Assembly: GCF_001956985.1 (NCBI RefSeq) | Contig: NZ_CP019082.1 | Span: 2,170,001-2,234,000 of the forward strand | Length of the DNA: 64,000 bases | DNA from: Paludisphaera borealis | Lineage (GTDB): Bacteria > Planctomycetota > Planctomycetia > Isosphaerales > Isosphaeraceae | Reading direction: 5' to 3' | Part shown: one piece after another, positions 18,797 to 38,317 of the stretch | How the letters are laid out: every line of letters begins with the position of its first letter | Position numbering within the stretch: position 1 is the stretch's first letter | The notes under the pieces: model-generated | What the model saw: the letters and a program-made list of their open reading frames with translations, nothing else | The model's database searches: none | What the model was told of the DNA's origin: nothing | Translations under genes and position numbers: made by a program

Positions 18797-20857
18797 TCAG
18801 GCCGAACGACGGCCCGCCAGCCGCTTCAGCTCGCGCTTCAGCCGTCTTCGTACCGCGATATTCAGATCGTTGCAGGCGTTGAAGATGCCGAGCGGCTCGG
18901 GTTCCTGGACCACGTGGACGACCTGGACCTCGGGAGGAGGCGCGGGCGCGACGACGACCGGAGCAGGCTCGGCCCACAGGGCAATGGCTTCCTGAAGGCT
19001 GCGCCGCATCTGAAGCGAACGGATCGACGGATTCGTGACGGCCTTCCGGTAGACCTCGAATGTCGCGCGGGCCGTCGCTTGCCAGTGAAGCGCCTCGATA
19101 CGTTGACGGCCTCTCTCGGTCAGCTCCGTCCGCAGATCTTCGTCGATCGCCAGACGCTGCATCGCCCGCGCCAGGTCGATGGGTGAGAGTCCATCCGAGT
19201 AAAGCGCGGCGTCGCCGCAGACTTCGGGAACGGAGGAAAACGGCATCGCGACGACGGGCGATCCGGTCGCCATCGCTTCGAGCGGCGGAAGCCCGAACCC
19301 CTCATAGACCGAGGGGAAGACGAGGGCCTCGGCGTTCTGGTACAGCACCTTCAACTCGTGGTCGGAGACCGAGCCGAGGAACGAGACGCCGGGCTGGTCA
19401 TGGACGCCGGCGGCAGTCCGGGGAGCGTTGCCGGCGAGCGCCAGCGCGGGTGGTTCGTCCTCGCGCCACCACTGTCGAAACAGTGCGTACGCCTCGAGCA
19501 GGCCCGCCAGGTTCTTGTGGGGATAGTCGCTTGCGAGGCTGAGGAAGTATCGTGGCGGCAGGTCGAGCCGCGCGCGAATCTCCTCCGCCTCGGCGACCGG
19601 AGCCGCGAACGCATCTACGTCCACCCCCAGGAAGATCGGCGAAATCTCGTCGATCGGAATGCCGAACTCGTCGGCGATCTCGCGGGCCGTGCAACGGGAG
19701 TACGCCAGAATTCCTTGCACGGCCTGGAGCGTCAAACGACTCGTATTTTGATACGTATTGTAGTCGTCTTCGGTCGCGAAGACGCCGGGTAGACGATAGG
19801 CGATCAGATCTTGATACGTGACGACCACGTGCGCCTTGGACTCGAAGAGCAGCTTGGCGTGGCGTCGGTCGAAAATCTGCGCCGGCTTGTGAATCACGGA
19901 GACGTCGTCGGCCCACTCGTCGGGAGAGACGATGCGGCCGGGGACGCCTTCAGCCTGGATCGGGTGAGCGGCGAGGAGGGTCAGATCGATCTCGGGGATG
20001 GCCGCGAGAGCCTTTCCCAGGCTGATCGCGTACATCTTCGTGCCGTTCTGCTCCAACGGCAGGTGGCGGACGTCGTAGGCGACCCGGAGCCTGCCCGAGG
20101 CCTGATACTCGATCGCGTGGCGCACGAGCGAGGCGTCGAGGGACCTCTCGAAGCGGTCGACCTGGCGCGCCAGATGCTCGTGCTTCGCGTGCAAGGTCGC
20201 GCCGTCGCCAGACTTCGATCCGGCCTCGCGGTCTTCACCGCAAAAAACGAACACATGATTCGCTCGCTTGGCGAAGAATCCCAGGGAACGCGCCCGCATT
20301 AGCCAGTCGTCGAGTGCGGCCGAGGCGGTCTTGAACCTTGGATCGAGCAGCCCCACGGCGTCGAGCACGTCGCCACGCAGGTAATTGCAGCCGATCCCGG
20401 CGCGGGGCGTTGAGGTCCAGGGCGCCAGTCCCTCGACCGCTCGGCGGACGCCGGCCTCGTCTATGTCCAAATCATCGGCGTCGACGCCCACCGCCGCGGC
20501 GAGCGCGGTCCGCTCCTCGGAGTGGGCCGCATCGGCGAGCCCAGCCAGCCACCTCTCGGTCACGACGGTCTCGGCATAGACGACGACCGCGTCGCCGCGC
20601 CGTGCGGCCAGGCCGCGATTGCAGCGCTCGACCCACCCGAGGTTGCGCGCGCATCGCAGGTGGTGAAGCCGCGGCTCAGTCGCGACGAGTTCGGCCAGAC
20701 CTTCCGCCAGGTCGAGATCGGAGCAGCCGTCGTCGATCAGCAACAGCCGCCCGAGCGTGGGCCCGCTCACATCGAGGATCTTCTGGAGGCGGCCGAGGAT
20801 CGCAAGATCGCCGCGCACGACCGGCACGATGACGTCGGCGTTCCGTTTCTGAGCCAT
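18797..20857 (-). CDS. Bifunctional glycosyltransferase (GT2-like N-terminus, GT4 C-terminus)
   Basis: A 686-residue protein. Residues 1-230 form a GT2-like domain (VIVPVVRGDLAILGRL, then LLLIDDGCSD and GDAVVVYAETVVT, where the usual DxD is replaced by a poorly conserved AET). Residues 255-620 form a GT4 domain: LRVAYDVRHLPLEQNGTKMY, YFLSLASDYPHKNLAGLLEA, and EGFGLPPLEAMATGSPVVA with the donor-binding EX7E. A Pro/Ala/Val-rich linker (APVVVAPAPPPEVQVVHVV) leads to a basic C-terminal helix (RRRLKRELKRLAGRRSA), which may bind the membrane. The missing DxD makes the N-terminal domain of doubtful activity. ATG 20857 has GGAG 7-8 bases upstream. Confidence 0.88.
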   Translation of the reverse strand: MAQKRNADVIVPVVRGDLAILGRLQKILDVSGPTLGRLLLIDDGCSDLDLAEGLAELVATEPRLHHLRCARNLGWVERCNRGLAARRGDAVVVYAETVVTERWLAGLADAAHSEERTALAAAVGVDADDLDIDEAGVRRAVEGLAPWTSTPRAGIGCNYLRGDVLDAVGLLDPRFKTASAALDDWLMRARSLGFFAKRANHVFVFCGEDREAGSKSGDGATLHAKHEHLARQVDRFERSLDASLVRHAIEYQASGRLRVAYDVRHLPLEQNGTKMYAISLGKALAAIPEIDLTLLAAHPIQAEGVPGRIVSPDEWADDVSVIHKPAQIFDRRHAKLLFESKAHVVVTYQDLIAYRLPGVFATEDDYNTYQNTSRLTLQAVQGILAYSRCTAREIADEFGIPIDEISPIFLGVDVDAFAAPVAEAEEIRARLDLPPRYFLSLASDYPHKNLAGLLEAYALFRQWWREDEPPALALAGNAPRTAAGVHDQPGVSFLGSVSDHELKVLYQNAEALVFPSVYEGFGLPPLEAMATGSPVVAMPFSSVPEVCGDAALYSDGLSPIDLARAMQRLAIDEDLRTELTERGRQRIEALHWQATARATFEVYRKAVTNPSIRSLQMRRSLQEAIALWAEPAPVVVAPAPPPEVQVVHVVQEPEPLGIFNACNDLNIAVRRRLKRELKRLAGRRSA

Positions 20858-21169: not shown

Positions 21170-22621
21170 ATGTTATTCACCGAGCCTACGTTTCTCTTCT
21201 TGTTCCTACCGACGGTGGTCTTGATCCATTGCGTCCTCCGCCCCCGCCTCAGGAACCTGTGGCTGCTGGCGGCGAGCTTCCTCTTCTATTGCTGGGGGGA
21301 AGGGCGGTTCGTCCTCTTGATGGTCGGATCGATCACGGTCAACTATGTTTTCGGACTGCTTCTTGGATACATACAACGGCCGACTCTGAGAAAGCTCTTG
21401 CTCGGAGCGGGCGTCGCGTCGAATCTCCTTGTCCTGATCTACTTCAAGTACTGCACGTTTCTGGTCGCGAACCTTGATGCGGCCCTGGCCTCGCTCCAGC
21501 TTCCGCCGATCGAGGTCGGATTGATTCCGCTGCCGCTCGGGATCTCCTTCCTCACGTTTCATACAATCTCATATCTGAGCGACGTGTATCGCGGCACGAT
21601 CAAACGCGAGAGCAATCCGATCGACTTGGCGCTTTACGTCATGCTCTTTCCCCACCTGATCGCCGGGCCGATCGTCCGGTACGCCGACATCGTCGCGGCC
21701 ATGAAGGCGCGAACGCTCGCGGTCGACGAGTTCGCCTATGGGATACGCAGGTTCCTTGGCGGCTTGGCGAAGAAGCTGCTGATCGCCAACCAGCTCGCGG
21801 CCACCGCCGACCTGATCCTGGGAATCCCTTCGAGCGAGCTGAACGCCGGCCTGTCGTGGCTGGCGATGGCCTGTTACACGTTCCAGATCTATTTCGATTT
21901 CTCGGGCTACTCCGATATGGCGATCGGCCTCGCCCACATGTTCGGAATTCGGTTCCATGAGAACTTCGATCATCCCTACTGGGCGACCTCGGTCACCGAC
22001 TTCTGGCGGCGGTGGCACATCTCGCTGTCGAGCTGGTTCCGCGATTACGTCTACATCCCCCTGGGGGGCAATCGGCGCGGCTCGGCCCGGACGTATTCGA
22101 ATTTGATGACGATCTTCCTGCTCTGCGGCCTCTGGCACGGCGCCAACTGGACGTTCATCGTCTGGGGGTTGTACCAGGGAGCCTTCCTCGTCATCGAACG
22201 CGTAGGGTTGGGACGCGTCCTCGATCGCCTGTGGCGGCCGTTGCGGCACGCCTACCTCGTGCTGGCCGTCGTGGTCGGCTGGGTCGTGTTCCGGATGGAT
22301 ACGCTGAGCGGGGCCGGTGAAATCCTAAGGGCCATGTTCGGCTTCGGCTCGGGGGCCGGGATCAAGTACCACGTCAGCCTCTACCTGACCAACGAGGTGG
22401 CCGCGCTCCTGGCGATCGCCGCCCTGCTATCGACGCCCCTGCTGGGCCGGCTGGGGCGAAAGATCGAGGAATTCGAGACCACGCTCGCCGACCGCTGGGG
22501 CTCGTTCGCGCCGGCGCCGATCCGCCTGGCGCGGGTCGCGGCCTACTGCTCGATTCTCGTCCTGTGCTTGAGCTTCGTGGCGCAGAAGAGCTACAACCCC
22601 TTCATTTACTTCCGGTTCTGA
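21170..22621 (+). CDS. MBOAT family membrane O-acyltransferase (AlgI-like)
   Basis: A 483-residue polytopic membrane protein. The MBOAT signature is visible: DFWRRWHISLSSWFRDYVYI, then LGGNRRG, and the conserved His in LLCGLWHGANWT near residue 323, the expected catalytic histidine. PHLIAGPIVRY and YFDFSGYSDMAIG are also AlgI/DltB hallmarks. AlgI-type proteins carry acetyl groups across the membrane for O-acetylation of exopolysaccharide. The next gene, an AlgX/AlgJ-like SGNH protein, begins 3 bases after the stop, so the two form a translationally linked pair. This implies that the glycan made by this locus is O-acetylated. Confidence 0.93.
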   Translation: MLFTEPTFLFLFLPTVVLIHCVLRPRLRNLWLLAASFLFYCWGEGRFVLLMVGSITVNYVFGLLLGYIQRPTLRKLLLGAGVASNLLVLIYFKYCTFLVANLDAALASLQLPPIEVGLIPLPLGISFLTFHTISYLSDVYRGTIKRESNPIDLALYVMLFPHLIAGPIVRYADIVAAMKARTLAVDEFAYGIRRFLGGLAKKLLIANQLAATADLILGIPSSELNAGLSWLAMACYTFQIYFDFSGYSDMAIGLAHMFGIRFHENFDHPYWATSVTDFWRRWHISLSSWFRDYVYIPLGGNRRGSARTYSNLMTIFLLCGLWHGANWTFIVWGLYQGAFLVIERVGLGRVLDRLWRPLRHAYLVLAVVVGWVVFRMDTLSGAGEILRAMFGFGSGAGIKYHVSLYLTNEVAALLAIAALLSTPLLGRLGRKIEEFETTLADRWGSFAPAPIRLARVAAYCSILVLCLSFVAQKSYNPFIYFRF

Positions 22622-22624
22622 TCT

Positions 22625-23875
22625 ATGCCATATGAACATCGACCAAAGGCGTCGGGCCGGCGCGCCGATCTTCTGCTGATCGTCGGCTTCTTCTCGATCC
22701 TCGTCTACCCCGCGCTCTCGCTCGTCGAGAACCCGGAGGAGCTCAAGGCGCGGGGCGTGACCGAGAAGCGGGCGCTGACGCCGCGGCCGCCGATCTGGCA
22801 ATTCGCGGCGGCGCCGTCGAAGTTCGTGGCCGACTTCAAATCGTTCTTCGAGGACCAGTTCGAGGGACGCGGCCAGCTCGTCACGTTCAATTCGCTGCTC
22901 CGCTACAACGTCTTCGACGTCTCGACGAATGCGTCGGTCCTGCCGGGAAAACACGGCGCGATGTTCTTCGCGGGAGAAGCCGTCGTGCCGCGCCACGACT
23001 TCGGGCATGAGACGGCGAGGTATCGCCGGGTCTTGCCTGTGACGGACCGGAGGCTTAAACGGCTTCAGGATCTACTCGAAAGCCGGCGGAAATGGGCCGA
23101 GAGCATGGGCGCCAAGTTCGTCTTCGTCGTCGCGCCCGACAAGAGCACAACGTACTCGGAGTTGCTCCCGGAGTGGTTGAACCCGCTTGACGGACCGACG
23201 TTCACCGATCAATTGATCGACCACCTGAAGGCGACGACCAACATCGAGATCGTCGACCTTCGACCCGCGCTCGAAAAGGCGAAACAGCCGGGAAAGCCGC
23301 TTTTTTACCTTCGCGACACCCACTGGAACTACGAAGGCGCTTTGGTGGGGTATCACGAGACCACCCGCTGGTTGAAGGAGAAATTCCCGGCGATCACACC
23401 GTTCGGTCCTGACGACCTCGTGCGCAAAGGCGAACGACATCAGGGTGACATGACCCAGATGCTCCACCTGGGGACGCGACTCTCGGAGCGGTCGCACCAA
23501 GTCTTGCTCAAGTCGCCACGCAGTGCGATCGTCCCGTTCGAGTACGACTCGACGCCGGTGTCGAGCTGGGCGGCCCCCCCCATCACCTACAAGAGCCATG
23601 ACGCTCGCCTCCCGAAAGCTCTCGTTTATCACGATTCATTTATGCTGCTCTTGATGCCTTATCTCGCGGAGAACTTCGATTCGTCGATCTTCATTCGCGA
23701 TCAACGCGTGGTCACAAGCACCGTCAAGGGCTATAAGCCTGACGTCGTAATCTTCGAATGCGTCGAGCGGACTCTGTACTACCTGGCCTACATCACCGAC
23801 GACCTGCTCCCCACGATCGAGCCCGCCATGATCGCGGAGAACCCGATTCAATCCAGTTCGCACGTGAAAAAATAA
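22625..23875 (+). CDS. AlgX/AlgJ-like SGNH O-acetyltransferase
   Basis: A 416-residue protein with an N-terminal membrane anchor (about residues 16-36) and a periplasmic domain of the AlgX/AlgJ group. The Asp/His pair lies in YLRDTHWNYEGA (Asp231, His233). LVYHDSFM near residue 338 is a plausible Ser nucleophile block. Such proteins take the acetyl group moved by the MBOAT partner and place it on the polysaccharide. It starts 3 bases after the MBOAT stop. ATG 22625 is the only nearby start with an anchor. No dedicated terminator is obvious downstream. Confidence 0.88.
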   Translation: MPYEHRPKASGRRADLLLIVGFFSILVYPALSLVENPEELKARGVTEKRALTPRPPIWQFAAAPSKFVADFKSFFEDQFEGRGQLVTFNSLLRYNVFDVSTNASVLPGKHGAMFFAGEAVVPRHDFGHETARYRRVLPVTDRRLKRLQDLLESRRKWAESMGAKFVFVVAPDKSTTYSELLPEWLNPLDGPTFTDQLIDHLKATTNIEIVDLRPALEKAKQPGKPLFYLRDTHWNYEGALVGYHETTRWLKEKFPAITPFGPDDLVRKGERHQGDMTQMLHLGTRLSERSHQVLLKSPRSAIVPFEYDSTPVSSWAAPPITYKSHDARLPKALVYHDSFMLLLMPYLAENFDSSIFIRDQRVVTSTVKGYKPDVVIFECVERTLYYLAYITDDLLPTIEPAMIAENPIQSSSHVKK

Positions 23876-24105
23876 CGAATCTCGCATCGATCGTCGGGAA
23901 GGTTGGGCGGCCTGTTCGGGGCCGACGCCGCGACGACCGAGGTGTTCGTCGGTCCCCGTTCTCGCCTGTTTTCTGGTCTTGTCTGATCGGACGTTCCCTT
24001 TTATAGTCCCGCGCGACAATCCGCCCTCCTCCGACTCAAGTGGGGCCAGGGCGTCAATCACTTCGTCGCCCTTTTCGTCGACTTGAGAAAAGAAAGAGAG
24101 CTCGA

Positions 24106-25911
24106 ATGTCGAACTCGATCACGTCAGAGCCGACGTCGCCAGACTCTGCGACGCATCCCATCGAGCCGGAGAGAAGCAAGCTCGCTCGCGTCCGCCAAGG
24201 ACTGCGAGGCGTTCTCTTTCCGAGCGCCTCCCCGGTCGGCCTCACCGGCGAGGGCTCGGGCAAGGCGCCCAACGTCCAGGCGCTGGAACTGGAGATGTCG
24301 TGGCTCAAGATGCAGCTCGCCCAGTACCGCAAGGAACAGGGGCAGTTCGAGGGGCTTGAGCCGTTCGTCCTGGGAACCGAGCACGTCTCGGGGATCGTGC
24401 CGCCGATCGCCGGCGCCGGGGTCCGAGCCACGGTCGGCTCGCCGTCGATGGCCGGCTACCTCGTCAGCGGCGACGCCTGGCAGATCCTGATCAGCAAGTT
24501 CCTCAAGCCGAATTCGCAGGTCCTCGACATCGGCTGCGGCTGCGGCAAGATGGCGCGCAACCTAGCGTACCATCCGCATATCAAGAAGTTCATCGGCTTC
24601 GATGTAATCCAGGACAGCATCGACTACTGCAACCAGACCCTGGTTCCGCGGATCGGCTCGAAGTTCGAGTTCCACTGCTACAACGTCTACTCGGAATGCT
24701 ACAACCCGCAAGGGACGATCAAGGCGTCCGAGCTGGTCTTCCCGGCCACGGACGGTTCGATCGACCTGGCCTGGGGCTGCTCGCTGTTCACGCACCTGCT
24801 TGAACCCGACGCCAAGCACTACCTGCGTGAAGTCCGCCGCGTGCTGTCGCCGAGCGGGATGTTCCTGCCGACGATCCACATCAATCCCGCGCCCGGCACG
24901 CGGTACTCGGGAAATGAGGTTCGGGTCGACATCGACATCGACTACTTCGCCGAACTCGCGGCCGAGGCCGGTCTCTCCCTCGCGGTCAAGCTCGGCGAGG
25001 TCTGCGGCCAGTACGCGCTGCTGTTCAAGGTCGCCCCGGGCGCCGAAGCGCCGAAGATCGTCAACGTCAACGGCACGAAGTCCGAGGCCGAGGTCGCCGA
25101 AGCCTCGAAGCCGAAGACCGGCGGAGTCCCCGTCCCTCCCAATGAGGGCGCGCTCACCGGGGAGATGCTCCGGCTCAACGGCCTCGCCGCCGAGAAGGAG
25201 GGCGTGACGCCTGACGTCCATCCCAAGGACTTCATCTTCTGGTTCGTCGCGACCCACCCCGAGCTGTCACTGGACAGCGCGACGACCTACTATTTTGAGG
25301 ACGGCGCCCGCTCGGCCGACAAGCTCGACAAGGAGCTGACCAGCCTGTTCGGCGAGGAAAAGAAGCCGATCAAGCTGCTCGAGTTCGCCTCGGGCTACGG
25401 CTGCGTCTCACGACACCTCAAGAAGAACCCCCGGTTCGACCTGACGAGCTGCGACATCCACCCCGAAGCGATCGACTTCTTGACGAACAAGATCGGCGTC
25501 AAGGCGCTCCAATCGGCGCACACGCCCGAGAAGTTCTCGACGCCCGAGAAGTACGACGCCATCTTCGCGCTCTCGTTCTTCTCGCACATGCCGAAGGCGA
25601 CCTTCGGACGCTGGATCAAGGCGTTGTACAACTCCCTCAACGCCCCCGGCTACCTGCTGTTCACGACGCACGGAATCAAGAGCATCGGCGGCCTGCAAAT
25701 CACTGCCGAGGACATCCCGGCCGACGGCTTCTGGTTCCAGGCCCGGAGCGAGCAGCACGACCTCGACGCCGAAGAATACGGCCTTACTCTCAGCCTCCCG
25801 AACTTCGTGATCCCCGAAGTCCATCGCGTCGTCGGCTCGCCGATCGCCAACTACAAGCAAGCCGAGTGGTGGTTCCACCAGGACCTCTGGATCGTCAAGC
25901 GCGAACGCTGA
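24106..25911 (+). CDS. Tandem class I methyltransferase protein
   Basis: A 601-residue protein with two SAM-binding domains. Domain one (residues ~110-300) has VLDIGCGCGKMARNL near 139, and IDLAWGCSLFTHLLEPDAKH with LREVRRVLSPSGMFL. A linker rich in Glu, Pro and Lys spans about 310-390. Domain two (about 395-595) has IKLLEFASGYGCVSRHL near 422 and YDAIFALSFFSHMPKATFG. Two methyltransferases in one chain suggest sequential or two-site methylation of one glycan. An alternative is that one domain is regulatory. ATG 24106 with a GAGAG purine run upstream is preferred over a longer reading from 24040. An intrinsic terminator follows at 25941. Confidence 0.9.
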   Translation: MSNSITSEPTSPDSATHPIEPERSKLARVRQGLRGVLFPSASPVGLTGEGSGKAPNVQALELEMSWLKMQLAQYRKEQGQFEGLEPFVLGTEHVSGIVPPIAGAGVRATVGSPSMAGYLVSGDAWQILISKFLKPNSQVLDIGCGCGKMARNLAYHPHIKKFIGFDVIQDSIDYCNQTLVPRIGSKFEFHCYNVYSECYNPQGTIKASELVFPATDGSIDLAWGCSLFTHLLEPDAKHYLREVRRVLSPSGMFLPTIHINPAPGTRYSGNEVRVDIDIDYFAELAAEAGLSLAVKLGEVCGQYALLFKVAPGAEAPKIVNVNGTKSEAEVAEASKPKTGGVPVPPNEGALTGEMLRLNGLAAEKEGVTPDVHPKDFIFWFVATHPELSLDSATTYYFEDGARSADKLDKELTSLFGEEKKPIKLLEFASGYGCVSRHLKKNPRFDLTSCDIHPEAIDFLTNKIGVKALQSAHTPEKFSTPEKYDAIFALSFFSHMPKATFGRWIKALYNSLNAPGYLLFTTHGIKSIGGLQITAEDIPADGFWFQARSEQHDLDAEEYGLTLSLPNFVIPEVHRVVGSPIANYKQAEWWFHQDLWIVKRER

Positions 25912-26228: not shown

Positions 26229-29200
26229 TCAGGCGCTTTCGCGAGACACGAATCCCTGGGAACGATCCTGAATCGAGAGAATCACGCGGGGCTCGCGAGG
26301 GAAGATGAGGAAGTCGCGGGCGTGGAAATACGACTCGGTGCAGACGGCCGACGTCCGGTCGATGTGGAATCGTTCGTCGAAAATCCGTCGCGCGTCGTCG
26401 CTGTGTTCGCCGTGAAGCTCCGGCTGCTTGAGATACCGGAGCAAGGCGGAGACCATTCGATCGACGTCGAGGACCGATCGATCGTTGGGAGGCAGGAAAA
26501 TGCCGGCTCGCCTGCGGTCGTGGGCGAGCATATCGTGGACGACACCGCGATCGGGAGCGATCACCGGGACATTGCAAGCTAGTGCGGCGGCGACGAGCGA
26601 GAGGGCCTCGTTGGCGGCTTCGGCGTGCGGCGCCAGGGCGGCGTCGCACTGGGCGAGCAAGGCCAACGGATCGATGGCCCGAGGCGCCGGGATCGTCATC
26701 CGATTCAGATGGTGATGACGATGATCGCGCTTGAGCGCGGCGACGGCTGCGTCCGGCAAGACCAGTCGGACGCGACGATCGGCGCGTTCGGCCGACGGCA
26801 TGCGGTTCACGATCTGAACCGCGTCCATCGCTTCCTTCCAGAAAAGCTTCGAGCCGGTCCCGTCGTCGATCAGGTAAACCAGGAAATCGCCGTCCCGCTT
26901 GCTGATCGGAATCGGATCGCGCTGAAGCAGCGCGTCGGGTTGGAACCCGCTGAACATCTTGATCCACCGCTTGCCGGCGAGAACCGGCCACTTCTCGGCC
27001 AACTTCAGGCTCGCCTGGCTCTCATGGAAGATTCCCGAGATCGACGCCAACGCGCCGGATGAAGGGCGATCGTCTTCGGTCGAGTCGCTCTCGTCGTCGA
27101 GCCAGCCGTCACGACCTTCTTCGAGGTGAATGAACCAGGGGATGTTCAACTCGGAATTGAGTTCGAGGACGAGCTGATCGGCCCGGACGAATCGCGAATG
27201 AATTACGTCGATGCGATGAAACCGGATCAGCTCGCGGAGGATCTCGATCCGCTGGCGGTTGAGCGCGCCGGCGGGCGAATCGGAGCCCGACCACGGCGTG
27301 TCGCCGAGGGTCCCTTCCAGAAGAATTACGCGGCCGTCGAGCCGGCTCGCCAGGTCGTCATGAGCCGCCACCGGCGCCACGCAGCAGAGAAAAACCTGAT
27401 GATCGCGGGCCAGGGCGTCGGCCAGATGAAGCATCGAGGCGGCTGCAACGCCCTTCTCGGCCCCGTCGATCACCAGCAGGACCTTGAGGTCGGGACGTCC
27501 GCCGACGCGGTCGGCGAGAATCTCGCGAATCCGATTCAAAGGGGCCACGGCCCGGGCGTTGGCCATGAGCGGAGGCCGCTTCAGTCCGAATCGCTCGGTC
27601 AGCGAGTTGTATTCGAGGAGCGTCTGCCCGAGACTGCGGGCTATCGCGTTGGCCGAGACCGAAAAGGTCTCGAAGATGCGGGCCTTCACATGCAGAGTCT
27701 CTTCCGCGTGTGTGTCGGCCTTGACCGACTGGTGGGAGACCGTCTGCTCGTGGCGTCGATAGAAGTTCAAGACGTCGGGGACGAAGGCGATTTTTCGGTC
27801 GCGGATCTGCATGGCGTAGAACAGCCAGTCGCCGGCGAACCGCATGCCGGCCAGTTCCTCGGCGAAGCTCAGCCGCTCGCTGCGCCGGAATACCACAGCG
27901 CTGGCGTTGGGAATCGTGTTCTTCTGGCTGAGCGCGAACTCAGCCTCCTCAGTCCCCTCGGCCGAATACCGCGAACGCCAGCGATCCGGCGAAAGGTCGT
28001 TGGTGTGCGCCAGGAAGTCGGCCACCCAGACCTGGCCTTCCGGGCCGATCAGCGCCGACTGACAGTAGGCGAGCGCGACGCCGCGATCGTGGAATTCCGG
28101 CAGCAGCCGTTCGAGGAACTCGGGGTGGCTACAGTCGTCGGATTCGGCGATCCAGACCAGGTCGCCGGTCGCCATCTCGAAGCCCTTCATCCACTGCTTG
28201 AACGTGCTCCCGCTGTTCTTCTGGTTGACGACCACACGGATCGGAACCGGCGACAAGGAGGCCAGCCGCTTGACGACCTCGACGCTGTCGTCGGGCGAGG
28301 CATCGTCGAGAACGATGATTTCATGCGGACGCACCGTCTGCTCGAAGATGCTTCGAAGGCGGTCTTCCAGGTAGGCGGCGTGGCGATAGTTGGGGACGAT
28401 CACCGACACCTTGAGGCTCTGAGCGGGTCGATAATCATACTCGGACCTGAGAATGCCGAGCATGTCGTCCATGAATCGGGGCCACGTGAAATCGCGACGG
28501 ATGGTCGCGCGGCCCTTGCGGCCCATCGCCGACCGCAGCGGGTGGTCGGTGAGGAGCCGGCGCACAGCCTTGGCCATCGCGTTGGCGTCGAGGTACGGCA
28601 CGGCGATTCCCGCGTCGCCCAGCACCTCGGGCGCGCCGCCGGAGCCCTGAAACGCCACGACCGCCAGCGAGCTTTCCATGGCTTCCAGGTTGGCGAACGG
28701 GCAAGGGTCTTCACGCGAGGTCAGGGCGAAGACGTCGGCGCCCAGGAAATACGGCGACATATCTTCGCGCGTGCCCAGGAACCGGATTCGATCGGCGAAG
28801 CCGGCGGCCTCGATGTCGTGGGCCAACCATTTGCGGAGCCCTGGATCGCTGGGATGTCCGACCCAGATGAACCAGGTTCGGGCGGCCAGAGCGGCCATCG
28901 CCGGATCGTTCAGAAATTGCCGCGCCATCTGGACGAACAGGTCGGCGCCCTTCCGCAGATCGATCGTGCCGCAACCGACGACGATCCGCGCGTCGTCGGG
29001 CAGACCAAGCTCGGCGCGGATGCGCGCTCGCATCGGCTCGTGATTCAAGTCGCGCGTCTTGGCGTCGAGTCCGTAATAAAGCGTCCGGATCGACGACGGC
29101 TCAATCGAGAACCGCTGGATCAACGCGCTGCGGACGACGTCGGCGGGGACGATCATATGCCGGCTCGCCGACTTGATCCGGTCGATGGCGGACTTGCCGC

Positions 29201-30968
29201 CGAGGATGTCGATGAACGTCGGCAGCTCGTGAATCCACGACAGCACCGGGACGTTCTGGTCGGCAAAGGCCTCATGAAACTCGCTCACCGCCATCGTGTT
29301 GCAGATCGCAACGCCGGTTCGAGAGAATTCCCGAAATCGCGCGGCGATCGTATGGGGCGCGTCTGACCAGGAAACTCCCTGCGCGCAGAGCGCTTGCAGA
29401 TCGAACGTTGGGGCGTGCTGGGCGAACTGTTCGGAGAGTTCGCCGCCGGATCGAAGCACGGTCCAGCATTCGACGTCGGGCAGCTTGGACAGTTCCTCGG
29501 ACAGTCGGAGCAGACACAGCGGCGCCCCGGTCCGGCAGGCGGCGTGGCCGACCAGAAGGATCTTGAACGTCGGCCTGGTGCGGGCGCCGTCGAGCGGGCG
29601 AGCCCCCGTGTAGGTCCACGGCAGATCCTCGAACCGTGCGGTACTTCGAGCGGGGACGATCGAGCGATAAACCGGCGACGATTCGAGAGCCGTCTGCGCC
29701 GACACCGAGTCTCGGATCTTGAGCGTGGTCTTGATCTTTCTGACCACGCGCCGCGAGGCCTTCCCAACCGCCGCACGAGGCCCGACGGTCACGGCGATGC
29801 GCGCAAATCGCGTGGCGAGGACCAGGCAGCGCCCGTGCAGCCGGGTCTCGGGAAAGTAACTGCCGCGGAACCGTCTCGCTTTTTCGAGCAACCGCCAGCC
29901 GAGGCTGTGCTGAAGACGGTTGAGCTGGTCGAGGGTCACGGCGTGGTGATGCTGGTGATGGGCGAGATGGTGGCGCAGCCAGGGGTTCTCCTGGCGGAGG
30001 GCCGAGTTCTCGTGGCTCATCGACTGGTGCTTCTCATCGAGGAGCGAGTTCTCCTCGCGAAGCAAGACGTTCTCCTCGCGGAGGGCCTGGTTCTCCTCAC
30101 GGGCGCTGAAATCGGCCAAGCCGACGGAGGGACTTCGCTTAAGGCCGCTTTCGTTCACGGTCGGGCTCGCGTCGTAGTAATAATCAGCTTCGCCCCGGGC
30201 ACCCATGCCAAGGATCGCCGCGTCGTCCTCGGGGTAGTCCACTTGCTGGCGCTGTTCGGCTTTCATTCGATCAATCAGGCTCTGCCCCAACCGTGCATAG
30301 ACGAGGCGGATCTCGTTACGCAAAGGGGGAACCTCATGAGCCTCGAACAACGGCCTGAGCCGCTCGGGAACCTTCGCGCCCATCGCCACAAGGCCGAAAC
30401 CGTCGCCGTGCGTGAACTCGAAGGTCTTATGCCTGCTCGCGAGTTCGTGGAAGAGGTGGTACGACCCCAAGCCCCGGCGCTGAACGCCAGTCCTCGGCAG
30501 CAGGAGGACCGCCCGGTCGGAGAGCTTGGACGCCCAGGCGTCCAGATCGCGTTGGAACGTTTCGACCTTCTCGGCGTCGGCGAGAACCATGAGGTCGATC
30601 GAGTGATCGGCGAAGGTCTCGACGACCTCCTCGGCGGCGACGAGCACGAGCTTCGAAAATACGCCGAAGGCGCGGTCGTGGCTCACTCGCGCACGCTGAT
30701 GAGCCGCATCGACGAACGCCGCGCCCGACTTTCGCGACGGCATAGCGTCGACAGCCGTACAGCGCGTTCCGAGACCTAGTCGCTTGACCGCTTCACCGAG
30801 GCTGAAATACACGCCGAGGGGTCGAATCCCGAGCTGAATGATCTCTTTCGGCTGCGCAGCCTGGACGGTCCAGAACGCTACGGGACTGAATAGAGCCTGG
30901 CTGAGCGGTTCGCAGGATTGGTCGGGCATCCAGAACGAGGCTTCCGACAGATACTGTGAGACATCCAT
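26229..30968 (-). CDS. Giant chimeric glycan protein: methyltransferase-like - coiled coil - GT4 - GT2 - GT4-like
   Basis: A 1579-residue protein. Residues 1-250 resemble a glycan-locus methyltransferase (Methyltransf_24 type) with eroded motifs: QLGIRPLGVYFSL where ELGTxxGxS is usual, and LMVLADAEKVETF where HIDGxHxYEAV is usual. Residues 283-330 are a coiled coil with repeated LREEN units, then a His-rich HHLAHHQHHHA. A GT4 domain (FKILLVGHAACRTGAPLCLL; EDPCPFANLEAMESSLAVVA) spans about 465-835. A GT2 domain (VSVIVPNYRHAAYLEDRL; IIVLDDASPDDS; LVWIAESDDCSHPEFLE) covers about 850-1110. A third, GT4-like domain (DLKVLLVIDGAEKG; APHAEAANEALSLVAAAL) covers about 1155-1560. ATG 30968 has AAGGAG 10 bases upstream. 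It probably builds several linkages of the local polysaccharide while scaffolded by the coiled coil. Confidence 0.88.
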   Translation of the reverse strand: MDVSQYLSEASFWMPDQSCEPLSQALFSPVAFWTVQAAQPKEIIQLGIRPLGVYFSLGEAVKRLGLGTRCTAVDAMPSRKSGAAFVDAAHQRARVSHDRAFGVFSKLVLVAAEEVVETFADHSIDLMVLADAEKVETFQRDLDAWASKLSDRAVLLLPRTGVQRRGLGSYHLFHELASRHKTFEFTHGDGFGLVAMGAKVPERLRPLFEAHEVPPLRNEIRLVYARLGQSLIDRMKAEQRQQVDYPEDDAAILGMGARGEADYYYDASPTVNESGLKRSPSVGLADFSAREENQALREENVLLREENSLLDEKHQSMSHENSALRQENPWLRHHLAHHQHHHAVTLDQLNRLQHSLGWRLLEKARRFRGSYFPETRLHGRCLVLATRFARIAVTVGPRAAVGKASRRVVRKIKTTLKIRDSVSAQTALESSPVYRSIVPARSTARFEDLPWTYTGARPLDGARTRPTFKILLVGHAACRTGAPLCLLRLSEELSKLPDVECWTVLRSGGELSEQFAQHAPTFDLQALCAQGVSWSDAPHTIAARFREFSRTGVAICNTMAVSEFHEAFADQNVPVLSWIHELPTFIDILGGKSAIDRIKSASRHMIVPADVVRSALIQRFSIEPSSIRTLYYGLDAKTRDLNHEPMRARIRAELGLPDDARIVVGCGTIDLRKGADLFVQMARQFLNDPAMAALAARTWFIWVGHPSDPGLRKWLAHDIEAAGFADRIRFLGTREDMSPYFLGADVFALTSREDPCPFANLEAMESSLAVVAFQGSGGAPEVLGDAGIAVPYLDANAMAKAVRRLLTDHPLRSAMGRKGRATIRRDFTWPRFMDDMLGILRSEYDYRPAQSLKVSVIVPNYRHAAYLEDRLRSIFEQTVRPHEIIVLDDASPDDSVEVVKRLASLSPVPIRVVVNQKNSGSTFKQWMKGFEMATGDLVWIAESDDCSHPEFLERLLPEFHDRGVALAYCQSALIGPEGQVWVADFLAHTNDLSPDRWRSRYSAEGTEEAEFALSQKNTIPNASAVVFRRSERLSFAEELAGMRFAGDWLFYAMQIRDRKIAFVPDVLNFYRRHEQTVSHQSVKADTHAEETLHVKARIFETFSVSANAIARSLGQTLLEYNSLTERFGLKRPPLMANARAVAPLNRIREILADRVGGRPDLKVLLVIDGAEKGVAAASMLHLADALARDHQVFLCCVAPVAAHDDLASRLDGRVILLEGTLGDTPWSGSDSPAGALNRQRIEILRELIRFHRIDVIHSRFVRADQLVLELNSELNIPWFIHLEEGRDGWLDDESDSTEDDRPSSGALASISGIFHESQASLKLAEKWPVLAGKRWIKMFSGFQPDALLQRDPIPISKRDGDFLVYLIDDGTGSKLFWKEAMDAVQIVNRMPSAERADRRVRLVLPDAAVAALKRDHRHHHLNRMTIPAPRAIDPLALLAQCDAALAPHAEAANEALSLVAAALACNVPVIAPDRGVVHDMLAHDRRRAGIFLPPNDRSVLDVDRMVSALLRYLKQPELHGEHSDDARRIFDERFHIDRTSAVCTESYFHARDFLIFPREPRVILSIQDRSQGFVSRESA

Positions 30969-31650: not shown

Positions 31651-31840
31651 CTCGCCACGATTCAGAGCGGGCGGACGACCCGGCGCATGCGATTTCCCGA
31701 GCCATGGAGGGAGAAGGATCGCCTCGCGCCGCGTCTGTTGGAAACGAGCGATCGGTCGACGTCTCAACGAGTCGTCGGCCTCGAATCGCCGACTACCGGC
31801 CGCGTGACGTCGAAATCTTGTCTGGCGCAAAGGAATGCCC

Positions 31841-33025
31841 ATGCACGTCTTCACGAGCATCACGGCCAACTACCTCCCCAAGGCCGCCGCACTGGCCCAT
31901 TCGGTCAAGCGGGTTCAACCCGAGGCGGTCTTCCACGTCGTGCTCTCGGACGACATGCCGGCCTGCTCGCCGCACATTACCGAAGCGTTCGACTCGATCA
32001 TCAACATCCGCGACCTGCCGATCGACGAACTCCCCCGATTCATCTTCCGACACCGCCTCGTCGAGCTGTGCACGGCGGTCAAGGGAACGGCGTTCCAGTA
32101 CATCGCCGACCGCTTCGGCGCCGACCGGATCTACTACTTCGATCCCGACATCATCGTCGCCGGCCGGCTGGACGGGCTCGAACGGGCGCTAGATTCGGGC
32201 AGCGTGCTGCTCACGCCGCACTCGATCGAGCCGGAAACCGATCCGATCGCGGTCCTCGACAACGAACACTGCTGCCTGCGTCACGGCGTCTACAACCTGG
32301 GCTTCCTGGCCGTCCGGATGAGCGCGAACGGGCGCAAGTTCGTCGATTGGTGGGCCGACCGGTTGCGGAACTACTGCTACGACGAGGTCGAGAACGGGCT
32401 GTTCACCGACCAGCGCTGGGTGGATCTCGCGCCGGCCTTGTTCGACGACATCACGATCCTCCGCGAGCCCCAGTACAACGTCTCCACCTGGAACCTGACC
32501 CACCGCCGCGCGACGGGCGAGGTTCCGTACGGGATCGAGATCAACGGCCGCCCCTTGTGCTTCTACCATTTCTCGGGCTTCGACAGCGGCGCCCAGCTCA
32601 CGATGCTCGACCGCTACGGATCGCACAGCCCGGTGCTGTATGAGTTCCGCGACTGGTACATCGCCCAGTGCGAACACTTCGGCCAGTCGACGATCGGCAA
32701 GATCCCCTGCATCTACGGCCGATACGCCAGCGGCCTGAAGATCAGCGACGCGCACCGCAAGGCCTATCGCCGGCGCGACGACCTGATGCGGTACTTCACC
32801 AACCCGTTCGACGACGTCGAGCCGGTCCAGTCGTACCGCCACTGGTATCAGACCCATGTGGAAGGCGCGCCCCCGGTCGCGGAGTCGGTTCCTGCCGCCG
32901 TCGAGTCCGCCGCTCAGAACGGCGACGGGCTCAGAAAGTTGTTCCGGGAGCACGCCCCCGAGCCGGTGCTGCGCGTGGCTCGATCGGCGAAATCCGCCCT
33001 CCGTCGACTGTCTGGACCTGCTTGA
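31841..33025 (+). CDS. Glycosyltransferase, GT8-like
   Basis: A 394-residue GT-A-type enzyme. HVFTSITANYLPKAAALAHS at the N-terminus is the GT8-like opening, and IYYFDPDIIVAGRLDGLE carries the metal-binding DxD near residue 100. NLGFLAVR and LCFYHFSGFD are further conserved blocks. Some planctomycete and cyanobacterial glycan loci carry this family with unknown sugar specificity. ATG 31841 is chosen over ATG 31835 because AAAGGA directly abuts 31835, leaving no room for it, but stands 6 bases from 31841. wecB follows after 50 bases on the same strand. Confidence 0.85.
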   Translation: MHVFTSITANYLPKAAALAHSVKRVQPEAVFHVVLSDDMPACSPHITEAFDSIINIRDLPIDELPRFIFRHRLVELCTAVKGTAFQYIADRFGADRIYYFDPDIIVAGRLDGLERALDSGSVLLTPHSIEPETDPIAVLDNEHCCLRHGVYNLGFLAVRMSANGRKFVDWWADRLRNYCYDEVENGLFTDQRWVDLAPALFDDITILREPQYNVSTWNLTHRRATGEVPYGIEINGRPLCFYHFSGFDSGAQLTMLDRYGSHSPVLYEFRDWYIAQCEHFGQSTIGKIPCIYGRYASGLKISDAHRKAYRRRDDLMRYFTNPFDDVEPVQSYRHWYQTHVEGAPPVAESVPAAVESAAQNGDGLRKLFREHAPEPVLRVARSAKSALRRLSGPA

Positions 33026-33075: not shown

Positions 33076-34215
33076 ATGAGTTCACAGACTCGCCAGACCG
33101 TGGTCTGCGTCGTCGGCACCCGCCCCGAGGCGATCAAGATGGCGCCGGTGATCCGGGCGCTTCGGGCGTCGTCGTGGGCGCGCTGTCGGGTGATCTTCAC
33201 CGCCCAGCATCGCGACCTGGTCGCCCCCGTCTTCGAGTTCTTCGGCGTCCAGCCGGACGTCGATCTCGACGTCATGCGACCGGGGCAGTCGCTGGCCGAC
33301 CTCAGCAATCGGCTGCTGGCCAGCCTTCACGATTCGCTGCGACGGGAAGACCCGGATTTCGTGCTGGCCCAGGGCGACACCACGACCGTCCTGGCCGCGG
33401 CCCTGGCGAGCTACATGCTGAGCGCGCCGTTCGGTCACATCGAGGCCGGCTTGCGCACCCATCGGCTGGACTCGCCCTTCCCCGAGGAAGCGAACCGCGT
33501 GGCCGTCAGCCACCTGTCGACCCTCCACTTCGCGCCGACGACCGCGGCACGCGAGAACCTGCTGCATGAGGGGATCGAGCGGGCGTCGATCCACATAACC
33601 GGCAACACCGGCATCGACGCCTTGCACCTCGCCGCGCGGCGCGATTCGCCCCTGGGAGCGAAACTCGACCCCGACAAGCGGCTGATCCTCGTGACCGTCC
33701 ATCGCCGCGAAAACCAGGGCGAGCCCCTGAGGCGGATCTGCGAGAGCGTCCGCGCCATCCACGAGAGTTTCGAGGACGTCGAGATCCTCTGGCCGGTCCA
33801 TCCCAATCCGGCCATCGGCCCGGTCGTCGCCGAGATCGTCGGCGGCCTGCCCCGGGTGCGGCTGGTCGAGCCCCTCTCCTACGGCTCGTTCGTGACCGCG
33901 ATGAAACGCTCCGCCCTGATCCTCAGCGACAGCGGCGGCATCCAGGAAGAGGCCACCGCGCTGCGCAAGCCGGTGCTCGTCCTGCGCCAGGTGAGCGAGC
34001 GCGACGAGGCTGTTCGCTGCGGCGTGGCCCGGCTCGTCGGCCACGACCCCGCGACCATCGTGGCGGAGACGTCGCGGCTGCTGGGCGACGCCGTCGACGG
34101 CCGGCCGCTGGCCCAGGCCGAGTCGCCGTTCGGCGACGGTCGCGCGGCCTCGCGGATCGTCTCGATCGTCAAGAAAAGCCTCAACCCTGTTCGATCAAAG
34201 GCCGTTCGCGCCTGA
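33076..34215 (+). CDS. wecB: UDP-N-acetylglucosamine 2-epimerase (non-hydrolysing)
   Basis: A 379-residue cytoplasmic enzyme interconverting UDP-GlcNAc and UDP-ManNAc. The hallmarks are VVGTRPEAIKMAPVI at the N-terminus, VLAQGDTTTVLAAALAS, GHIEAGLRTH, VTVHRRENQG and LSDSGGIQEEA. Length and motifs are normal for WecB. Its product can be oxidised to UDP-ManNAcA, but no WecC-like dehydrogenase is in the window, so ManNAc itself may be the unit used. ATG 33076 follows GGGAGAA. It indicates that the polysaccharide assembled here contains ManNAc or a derivative. Confidence 0.96.
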   Translation: MSSQTRQTVVCVVGTRPEAIKMAPVIRALRASSWARCRVIFTAQHRDLVAPVFEFFGVQPDVDLDVMRPGQSLADLSNRLLASLHDSLRREDPDFVLAQGDTTTVLAAALASYMLSAPFGHIEAGLRTHRLDSPFPEEANRVAVSHLSTLHFAPTTAARENLLHEGIERASIHITGNTGIDALHLAARRDSPLGAKLDPDKRLILVTVHRRENQGEPLRRICESVRAIHESFEDVEILWPVHPNPAIGPVVAEIVGGLPRVRLVEPLSYGSFVTAMKRSALILSDSGGIQEEATALRKPVLVLRQVSERDEAVRCGVARLVGHDPATIVAETSRLLGDAVDGRPLAQAESPFGDGRAASRIVSIVKKSLNPVRSKAVRA

Positions 34216-34275: not shown

Positions 34276-35838
34276 CTACACCGGGCGATCGATCCGGGTG
34301 GTCCGCTCAACGCCCGACGGCCCCAGGTGGCGGAACTTGAGCCAGATCTGCTTGATCTGCCTTCGTCCTCGGAGCGCCGCGCCGAGGACCGCGTGCGATT
34401 CGATGCGATCCAGTCGTTTGCGAAGCTCGACCGTTTCGAGCCAGAGTTTCTGCTCGCGATCGAGGGCCAGTCGGAACTGGTCGTCCCGCTCGATCGTCAT
34501 TTCCTGGATCCGAGCGATGCGATCCTGGGTCTCGGCAAGCCGGGCGCGATCGGCCGTCCAGGCCTCCTGAGTCAGGCTGAGCGCCTCCTGGTGCTGATCC
34601 ATCCGCGCCAGGCTTCGCTCGAGTTCGAGGTTGCGGTTCTGGACCGCCGCGAGCTGCGCGACCGCATGCTCATACGACTGCTGAATCTGGACGACGTGGT
34701 TCTCGGTGTGGGCGAGGACGCCCTGCGTATGGGCGAGGAGCTGTTCGGCCGAGACCCGCCGCTCTTGCGTCGAGACGAGGCTCTCCATGGTCCGGGCCAG
34801 GTTCATCTCCGACTGTTCGACGCAGTGCTTCGCCAGGTTGAACGCCTTCTCCGCATCGACCAGGTCGGTCTCGGCCCGCACGGCTCGGGCTTCGAGTGCG
34901 TGCGCGATGGCTCCGGCTTCCGCGACCACGTCCTTGTGTCGTTGGAGATCGAAAAGCGTCACGCCAAGCTGTTTCTGGGTCTCGCCGAGCAATCGATGCA
35001 TCGTCGCTTCGTATTGGCGGGCGTCCTTCGCGAGGCGTGCGGCGTTGATCGTCGGGTCGAGACCATCCCATGCGTCACCGCTGATTTGTTCGAGCGATTC
35101 TTGCGCGGCGTGCGAGACGATCGCCGGCTGGTGATGGACGCACGACCGATCGAAAGCGGCGTCGACCGTCGCGTCGTCCCAGGCCAGGCCGCACGCCTCG
35201 ACGAGCTGGCGGAGATCGGTCTGGAAATGGGCGTCGCTGAACCGAATGATCCTCGCGTCGCCGCCGAATTCCTCAGCGACCGCCTTCATCCGCGCGAGGT
35301 GGACCCCCACCAGGTCGAGGGCCCGCCAGTAAGGCATGATCCCCCCGCTCCTCGTGCAGAGGCTCATGGCGATCTCGTGGGGCGAGCGAACCAGCAGGAC
35401 CGGCACGACTTCGACGCCGGCCGTCGATTCAAAGACGCGTCGCCAGAACGGCCATAGCAGGACCGTTCGCGGATCTTTGAAGCCCGAGATCGAGCCGCTC
35501 GCGACCAGGGTGCTGACCAGCGATTCGGCCTCGGCGAACCACTCATCGGGAATCGACCTGTCCGAAGGCCATTCGCCCTGGGAATCGACAAACCGCGCAA
35601 GCAGCTCGGGATCTTCGGTCCCCTCTTCCTGAAAGCCGAACGCCCACGTCTGGATCTTCCGGTTCAATTCGAGGAACGGAACCGGTTCGAAGTGCCCGTA
35701 CGGATTGCTCGGCGCCGCGCCGAGCAGCTCGAACGGGCCGAGCGACATTCCAAGCTTCTGCAGGACGTTCGCCGTCAGGCTGGAACCGCTACGGTGCATG
35801 CATAACAGAACGACCAGCTTACGCTTTGATTCATCCAT
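34276..35838 (-). CDS. Sulfotransferase-like protein with long C-terminal coiled coil
   Basis: A 520-residue protein. KLVVLLCMHRSGSSLTANVL at residues 7-26 is the 5'-phosphosulfate-binding loop of PAPS-dependent sulfotransferases, and NPYGHFEPVPFLELNRKI is typical of the glycan-locus branch. VPVLLVRSPHEIAMSL is the 3'-phosphate region. From about residue 265 to 500 it is a long coiled coil (DVVAEAGAIAHALEARAVRA; LARMDQHQEALSLTQEAWTA). A basic tail follows (RGRRQIKQIWLKFRHLG). If active it would sulfate the polysaccharide, although no PAPS synthesis gene is near. ATG 35838 is used; a reading from 36570 would run through the antisense of metG. Confidence 0.82.
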   Translation of the reverse strand: MDESKRKLVVLLCMHRSGSSLTANVLQKLGMSLGPFELLGAAPSNPYGHFEPVPFLELNRKIQTWAFGFQEEGTEDPELLARFVDSQGEWPSDRSIPDEWFAEAESLVSTLVASGSISGFKDPRTVLLWPFWRRVFESTAGVEVVPVLLVRSPHEIAMSLCTRSGGIMPYWRALDLVGVHLARMKAVAEEFGGDARIIRFSDAHFQTDLRQLVEACGLAWDDATVDAAFDRSCVHHQPAIVSHAAQESLEQISGDAWDGLDPTINAARLAKDARQYEATMHRLLGETQKQLGVTLFDLQRHKDVVAEAGAIAHALEARAVRAETDLVDAEKAFNLAKHCVEQSEMNLARTMESLVSTQERRVSAEQLLAHTQGVLAHTENHVVQIQQSYEHAVAQLAAVQNRNLELERSLARMDQHQEALSLTQEAWTADRARLAETQDRIARIQEMTIERDDQFRLALDREQKLWLETVELRKRLDRIESHAVLGAALRGRRQIKQIWLKFRHLGPSGVERTTRIDRPV

Positions 35839-35990
35839 GACGTAATTCCCCTGCCCCTCGCATCGGCGCGAGGGACGCGATCCTGTACATCGACGGCGGC
35901 CGATCCTTTCCCATTCTTTATCTCTATCGGCGAAAACAGGGAACGTCAAAGACAGAAAACTCGGCCGCCGCCGTTGGCGCCAGGCGCGAC

Positions 35991-37577: not shown

Positions 37578-37726
37578 GTACCCGATCCTTGCGCTGAGAA
37601 TCTTGGCTTCCGAAAACCCGTTCAAAGGAAACCCCGAGACCTCAATATCTTAGAGAACGCCATCAAGGGGGAAGTTCGCCGTCGATCCGAAAGTGCGGGA
37701 TCGAGTGTACCAGATCATGAACCCGG

Positions 37727-38317
37727 CTACTTCGGCGCGGGGGTGGTTCGGGAGCGTCGCCGCAGGAGCCCCCAGGCCGACACCAACCCGATCAGCAACA
37801 GGCTGCTCGGCTCCGGCACCGACGGCGGCAGAGTCTCCAGGGGTGCCAGAGGCGTGATCGGCGGCTCGACCTCCGGCGCGACCGGGACGCTCGTGGGCGG
37901 ATCGAGGGTGAGCGGTGCCAGGAGTCGACCGAGATAGGGGTGGTAGCGATCGAACCGCAGCGGGTTCAGATCACGCCGCCAGATCAGGTAGTCGATCATC
38001 GGATTTGCGGCGATCGAGGCGGGGTCTCCGTTGAGGATCTGGAAGATCGAACGCCGGACTGGGATCGTGAAGGCTGGCGACTGCGACGTCGCCCAGACCT
38101 CCGGCCCCGTCGAGAGGAACAGGTTCCAGGCGTTCGGAAGCGTCGGCGTCACAACCGCGCTGGCCTGCAAGAGTTCCTGGCTCCCCCTCATCGCTCCGAA
38201 CGTACGGAGCGGGGTCGCCTGGGCGTCGGCCGCCGACAAGGCGAGGCCGACGGCGACGAAGACGACGGGCGTCCATCGCGTGGGTCGAGGCTGAAGCGTC
38301 TGCTGGGTCGCATCCAT
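37727..38317 (-). CDS. PEP-CTERM sorting domain protein
   Basis: A 196-residue secreted protein. A hydrophobic stretch near residues 15-33 acts as the export signal. The C-terminus has VPEPSSLLLIGLVSAWGLL followed by RRRSRTTPAPK. This is the PEP-CTERM tripartite signal recognised by exosortase: Pro-Glu-Pro, transmembrane helix, Arg-rich tail. The middle part is not recognised. Family members are extracellular or surface proteins, often linked to exopolysaccharide, which fits the locus. ATG 38317 has AGGTG 5 bases upstream. The gene is divergent from the aldehyde dehydrogenase. Confidence 0.85.
   Translation of the reverse strand: MDATQQTLQPRPTRWTPVVFVAVGLALSAADAQATPLRTFGAMRGSQELLQASAVVTPTLPNAWNLFLSTGPEVWATSQSPAFTIPVRRSIFQILNGDPASIAANPMIDYLIWRRDLNPLRFDRYHPYLGRLLAPLTLDPPTSVPVAPEVEPPITPLAPLETLPPSVPEPSSLLLIGLVSAWGLLRRRSRTTPAPK

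Follow-up and report, generated by a model that had tools for sequence, protein, structure and literature searches.

The active form of a methyltransferase–coil–glycosyltransferase (GT) chain is already known as a terminator of glycan chains. The available text on Klebsiella pneumoniae O7 describes ORF6 as a single chain that carries an active N-terminal methyltransferase, a coil and GT modules (PMC11231755), and presents E. coli WbdD, a methyltransferase-kinase with a coiled coil, as a split form of the same arrangement (PMC11231755, PMC3482155). The methyltransferase of both systems is described as an active chain-ending enzyme with an adjacent kinase, and the coil as a ruler. A limited literature search found no published description of an inactive methyltransferase domain in a glycosyltransferase; the accessible part of a Neisseria study records truncated methyltransferase genes in the capsule region that are unlinked to capsule synthesis (PMC6619384).

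The protein analysed here is a genus-wide version of this architecture without the active-site residues. It resembles O7 ORF6 in having an N-terminal methyltransferase fold, a coil and then glycosyltransferase modules on a single chain. It differs from O7 ORF6 and WbdD in that the methyltransferase motifs are lost and no kinase was found among the 11 Pfam families matched at E up to 1, a distinction drawn from domain descriptions. An active terminating enzyme of the WbdD type beyond the coil is therefore not recognizable. Taken at face value, the motif loss would make chain ending by methylation impossible for the chimera. We also considered a WbdD-like coil ruler setting glycan length as a candidate role.

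Gene, domain order and orthologues

The window, a stretch of 64,000 bases, comprises bases 2,170,001–2,234,000 of the 7,497,544-base largest contig of the wetland bacterium Paludisphaera borealis, whose genome of 7,651,896 bases is in three contigs. The gene and its parts are as follows, in window coordinates.

26229..30968, minus strand: whole chimera gene, 1579 aa (open reading frame, Pfam, orthologues in 5/5 other genus genomes)
30249..30968, minus strand: residues 1–240, Methyltransf_24-like domain with a class I O-methyltransferase fold and missing motifs (Pfam, AlphaFold2, structure search, tree)
29634..30248, minus strand: residues 241–445, variable linker (alignment, weak ZapB match, crude heptad scan)
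28419..29633, minus strand: residues 446–850, GT4 domain with intact REDPCPFANLEAME and GCGTIDLRKG motifs (Pfam, alignment)
27579..28418, minus strand: residues 851–1130, GT2 domain with intact LDDASPD, AESDD and GDWLFY (Pfam, alignment)
26232..27578, minus strand: residues 1131–1579, degenerate GT-B-like domain (weak profile matches, motif loss)

The frame runs from an ATG start at 30968 to a stop at 26229 with zero internal stops, bearing out the 1579-residue reading frame claimed by an earlier sequence-only reading of this DNA. Among 59 genomes searched, the whole-protein frame was present in all six of Paludisphaera, P. borealis included; in two of them (G004 and G005) the match consists of two pieces inside one open frame. 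The five full-length orthologues are 54–61% identical to the P. borealis chimera. A full-length open frame in 6/6 genus genomes rules out a gene-model, assembly or chance artefact. Pfam scanning and sequence comparison gave the order degenerate methyltransferase, coil, GT4, GT2, degenerate GT-B. The sequence-only reading had proposed five parts in this order, and the order stands, but the last part is degenerate, GT4-like by ancestry and no third transferase.

The linker carries a conserved basic segment, F-P-x-T-R-L-H-G-R-C, and a heptad-patterned stretch at about residues 288–352 (bounds set by eye). This stretch is coil-like as judged with a crude heptad scan, whose best windows differ among orthologues.

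The N-terminal domain is predicted to keep a methyltransferase fold

In the full chimera, Methyltransf_24 (PF13578) matched residues 55–156 with E 3.9e-4 and 21.7 bits against a curated cut-off of 26.3; residues 1–240 alone scored 23.6 bits and the genome search 24.7 bits, both below the cut-off. AlphaFold2, run on residues 1–240 with seven sequences, nevertheless predicted a class I methyltransferase fold (pLDDT 89.5, pTM 0.88), an alternating alpha/beta Rossmann arrangement like that of solved O-methyltransferases. The top structural match of the model was the O-methyltransferase 8c9v (Z 15.1, rmsd 2.6 over 169 residues), catechol O-methyltransferases (COMT) matched at Z about 14, and MeT1 (6g80) was fourth in the Foldseek list. 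MeT1 (6g7d/6g80) was also the best PDB sequence match of a profile of the intact relatives (E 0.0069); with degenerate rows included in the profile, MeT1 was missing at E 0.1 and CmcI alone was listed (0.066). The available text on MeT1 describes a mannoside 1-O-methyltransferase acting on the 1-OH (PMC9883506). MeT1 shares its fold with the Paludisphaera domain, and the E-L-G-x-x-x-G-x-S and IDGxH-HD motifs with the intact relatives; the Paludisphaera domain differs from MeT1 and Methyltransf_24 in missing these motifs and falling below the Pfam cut-off.

Relatives of the domain were gathered from Isosphaeraceae (14 of 45 genomes matched), from other phyla and from other Planctomycetota, where 6 of 343 genomes matched at E 1e-20, the own genome included. 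A contig scan with residues 1–250 as query returned zero relatives, and its rerun with an alignment query returned six loci.

Within P. borealis, no second subfamily member was found either by the orthologue profile (all 53 candidates scored, at E 0.001) or by the intact profile (8 of 26 candidates scored, E 1e-20). An intact subfamily paralogue elsewhere in the genome, acting as the real methyltransferase, was rejected as an explanation, as among the candidates scored both profiles find the chimera alone. The genome has six genes over the Methyltransf_24 cut-off, every one outside the window; two of these, L043 with an IDGxH block and L042 with IDADH, are matched by neither profile.

Active-site motifs are missing in all six Paludisphaera proteins

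Three segments of the domain mark the former active site.

30807..30839, minus strand: former SAM-binding loop after strand 1, residues 44–54, with E45 changed to Q, H49 to R, and G51 and S53 lost (alignment)
30570..30587, minus strand: former H-I-D-G-x-H metal/catalytic block after strand 4, residues 128–133, with D130, G131 and H133 lost in 6/6
30489..30497, minus strand: former H-D-T where strand 5 ends, residues 158–160, with D159 replaced by R or K in 6/6

In P. borealis the first reads QLGIRPLGV (residues 45–53) and the region of the second VLADAEKVETF (residues 128–138), exactly as quoted in the sequence-only reading. The SAM-loop motif used there for comparison was also correct: the intact relatives have E45 in 16/16, G51 in 15/16 and S53 in 16/16 sequences, against 0/6 each in Paludisphaera, where G47 of E-L-G-x-x-x-G-x-S is retained (6/6). 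Altogether E45, G51, S53, D130, G131, H133, H158 and D159 are missing in all six proteins, leaving neither an I-D-G-x-H nor an H-D block. By analogy with COMT, we take D130 and D159 to be metal ligands. The replacements are fixed at three sites, with Q45, R49 and R/K159 in 6/6. H128 is retained in four of the six sequences, and all six have an acidic residue, D or E, at position 74, where strand 2 ends. Inspection of the SAM-pocket residues thus found the conserved ones gone, save the acidic residue 74 and G47, and with these two retained some nucleoside binding remains conceivable.

We further counted retention at the 46 positions that are at least 90% conserved in the 16 intact relatives. 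Paludisphaera retains 12 of them in 6/6 sequences (P40, G47, Y54, S105, W145, K148, G168, F183, F185, H187, G190 and G192) and 17 in 0/6; the twelve retained positions look like core and C-terminal structure. A pocket set of 14 positions holds nine of the 17 full losses, against 8/32 elsewhere (positions 24, 27, 30, 85, 112, 135, 169 and 193; Fisher p 0.019), which is suggestive of over-representation, the pocket set and the label 'intact' being our own choice. Three sequences that are degenerate themselves (L035, L033 and L034) were excluded from the intact set, and its 16 rows include L039 (Asp130 to Tyr), L083 (start cut, F at 159) and L085 (A at 51).

The suggestion that the first domain is a dead methyltransferase is upheld by the loss of the motifs in 6/6 orthologues, the retained fold and the position of the domain beside intact relatives in the tree. 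On sequence and phylogeny, the case that the domain no longer methylates is strong. With the active site apparently lost and the domain nonetheless retained in 6/6 genus genomes, its probable task is to hold or position something, not to methylate it.

Two transferase domains with intact motifs and a degenerate GT-B-like domain

The GT4 domain matched Glycos_transf_1 with E 5.9e-27 and 94.7 bits (cut-off 26.4), and its E-x7-E region, REDPCPFANLEAM, is identical in 6/6 orthologues. Within it D754 and E762 have the spacing of E-x7-E, the first Glu being an Asp that is preceded by Glu753. The segments GCGTxDxRKG and REDPCPFxxLEAM were found in all eight sequences having the domain (nine sequences aligned). 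The GT2 domain gave a Pfam match with E 1.1e-25 and 91 bits (cut-off 23.3) and has AESDD as its DxD-type motif in 6/6; LD(D/N), AE(S/A)DD and GDW are retained in 9/9 aligned sequences, and GT2 is the most conserved part of the chimera (mean identity 81%).

The C-terminal domain gave a different picture. The window copy lies below the cut-off for all four GT families that it matched, including Glyco_transf_4 at the end of the chimera (E 1.7e-4), and these weak GT4-type matches span both of its halves. At E up to 1, Glyco_transf_4 matched the domain in five of six orthologues and Glyco_trans_1_4 in four of six. Profile comparison matched it to GT4 proteins along the domain with probability 74; a match to the chimera's own GT4 was undetected (probability 1.1), and a PDB profile search gave no confident match (best E 0.074). 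AlphaFold2 with three sequences reached a pLDDT of 40. All seven sequences that reach the region have A, L or F in place of the second Glu of E-x7-E. Six relatives have the first part alone of the domain (G016, G028, G034, G060, G062 and the second copy of G059); GT4-GT2 precedes this shortened form in G016, G028 and the second copy of G059, and in G034, G060 and G062 GT2 precedes it without a matching GT4 in front.

The proposal of an oligosaccharide builder with three transferases consequently found no support in its third unit: GT4 and GT2 have intact motifs, while the C-terminal domain is sub-threshold, lacks the second Glu in 7/7 and is shortened in six relatives, and we rejected three active transferases. 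With that domain degenerate, two working transferase units are counted. Domain counts thus overstate activity, since two of the four enzyme-like units of the chimera look functional.

Constraint along the chain

Mean pN/pS over 15 pairs was 0.50 for the methyltransferase domain, 0.58 for the linker, 0.41 for GT4, 0.24 for GT2; the first and second halves of the C-terminal domain gave 0.50 and 0.56. These ratios are uncorrected, with mean pS of 0.49–0.61, and are rough values. A higher ratio in the methyltransferase than in both GT domains is the pattern expected from partial relaxation. Constraint on the methyltransferase domain is weaker than that on the transferases, yet its frame is open in every genus genome searched.

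Fusion history and related chimeras

A maximum-likelihood tree built from 25 sequences united the six Paludisphaera domains in one clade (100/100) on a long stem of 1.08. Their sisters (support 95/89) are the intact proteins L027 and L028 from another genus of the family, each encoded by a methyltransferase-coil frame of its own, 421 and 455 residues long. In a genome of this sister genus g7 (G059), the parts are unfused, with an intact methyltransferase-coil protein (L074:5276-6538) 5.8 kb from a GT4-GT2-GTB protein of 1347 residues (L074:12293-16333). As the parts are unfused and intact in the sister genus, fusion and motif loss are probably both specific to Paludisphaera. The simplest history, reconstructed from sequence comparison, is that two genes would have fused in the Paludisphaera ancestor, with the motifs lost on the same branch. 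In the other g7 genome having both parts (G028) the two are about 2 Mb apart, so that a pre-fusion neighbourhood rests on G059 and on G016, where a more distant intact methyltransferase lies about 6 kb from a GT4-GT2 protein. The unfused intact counterparts in the sister genus offer a clean natural comparison for a non-methylating role of the methyltransferase fold.

Fusion by itself needs no enzyme death, as two other chimeras are fused yet intact: L038 (Acidimicrobiia) and L086 (G413), with frames of 1397 or 1644 aa. Like the Paludisphaera protein they have an N-terminal Methyltransf_24 domain, a coil-like linker (by eye) and then glycosyltransferase domains; they differ in their intact methyltransferase motifs and in GT order, which is GT2 first, or RgpF then GT4.

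A second chimera (L053:13744-17925), in a genome of the same bacterial family (G065), has the order methyltransferase-GT2-GT2-GT4. Like the Paludisphaera protein, it has a fused methyltransferase with substitutions at the Asp and His of IDGxH and at the Asp of HD; unlike it, it retains E, G and S of the SAM loop, scores 44.3 bits, over the Pfam cut-off, and places GT2, GT2 and GT4 in that order. It groups with L029–L031 (81/83), away from the Paludisphaera clade, and its motif loss therefore looks independent. About 9 kb separate it from L029, an intact methyltransferase-coil protein. Two standalone frames of 254–255 aa (L033:1267-1995 in G064 and L034:1414-2142 in G027) are without IDGxH and HD, and represent either a distant family or another non-catalytic set. 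The incomplete motifs of L053, and of L033/L034, are a hint of repeated decay or conversion.

Proposed role and alternative explanations

We give a probability of about 0.6 to the reading that the chimera is a two-transferase enzyme of envelope-glycan assembly in which a degenerate methyltransferase is retained as a non-catalytic binding or dimerising module. GT4 and then GT2 would be two working glycosyltransferases on one chain, building a cell-envelope glycan. The first domain would descend from a sugar O-methyltransferase, ancestrally a separate methyltransferase-coil protein, that was fused to a GT4-GT2 protein on the Paludisphaera stem and lost the SAM loop, the catalytic block and the metal-binding Asp. 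As a non-catalytic module it may bind the growing glycan or its carrier, or dimerise the enzyme, with oligomerisation or spacing as further proposed roles; standing at the far end of a coil of ~60 residues, it would position the acceptor. The C-terminal GT-B-like domain would be likewise degenerate. The binding or scaffolding role that the sequence-only reading had offered for the methyltransferase domain, putative as it is, is plausible. It is unlikely, in our judgement, that the pocket was converted so that Arg49 and Arg/Lys159 form a putative anion site, turning the methyltransferase fold into an acceptor sensor; such a pocket would hold a phosphorylated or lipid-diphosphate-linked glycan acceptor and feed the GT4-GT2 core.

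The domain might instead be a decaying remnant, unused after the fusion and retained because its folding protects the rest of the chain. The long stem branch, the decay of the C-terminal domain as well, and a pN/pS that exceeds the values of the GT core, falls between GT4 and the linker and matches the first C-terminal half, are consistent with this. We consider it doubtful, however, as residues 1–240 hold 66 invariant positions across the six sequences (the other five being 49–55% identical to that of the window), stops or frameshifts occur in 0/6 (L005 and L006 have short gaps), and the replacements at 45, 49 and 159 are fixed, not random. Continued catalysis, as a metal-free divergent methyltransferase or as other chemistry in a remodelled pocket, would fit the retained fold, G47, Y54, the acidic residue 74 and the His at 128 in four of six proteins, but it appears quite unlikely given eight active-site residues gone in 6/6 and a 623-aa neighbour, with two ordinary methyltransferase matches, that could do the methylation. 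Very improbable is a three-transferase machine in which an active C-terminal GT-B domain lets the chain build a trisaccharide: the weak Pfam matches over both halves and the profile match to GT4 proteins speak for it, and are outweighed by the lost second Glu, the six relatives with the shortened domain, the failure of the chimera's own GT4 to match, and a second C-terminal half that is the least conserved part after the linker (mean identity 52%).

Genomic neighbourhood

Four genes near the chimera recur across the genus.

31835..33025, plus strand: 396-aa protein, 69–73% identical in 5/5 other genus genomes
33076..34215, plus strand: non-hydrolysing UDP-GlcNAc 2-epimerase (WecB), 415 bits (cut-off 210)
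24040..25911, plus strand: 623-aa protein with two methyltransferase matches, near the chimera in 5/5 other genus genomes
18797..20857, minus strand: GT4 glycosyltransferase, near the chimera in 5/5 other genus genomes

Each of the five other Paludisphaera genomes has this neighbourhood, with the WecB-type epimerase and the 396-residue, 623-residue and GT4 proteins near the chimera; L058 shows the 623-residue and GT4 genes in the opposite order, the former being truncated where the L058 region ends. The WecB-type context points to an envelope glycan that would contain a ManNAc-type sugar. The 623-aa protein could be an alternative source of methylation. The 396-aa protein matched neither Pfam nor NCBIfam at E 0.001; its YFDPD stretch suggests a transferase of GT-A type. 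The available text on the P. borealis genome counts 83 glycosyltransferases and describes two large GT clusters (PMC5352709); one cluster, BSF38_01716-01727, may by its tag numbers alone be the chimera locus.

Three further observations concern this part of the window. An MBOAT acyltransferase and AlgX-like pair (21170-23875) had no match at E 1e-8 in the regions compared from the other Paludisphaera genomes; it may be an insertion in P. borealis that serves glycan acylation. Within 34276-37625, a MetG tRNA synthetase frame (35991-37625) overlaps a 764-aa frame (34276-36570), whose true start may lie further in. A small protein with a PEP-CTERM sorting motif (37727-38317) adjoins the glycan locus.
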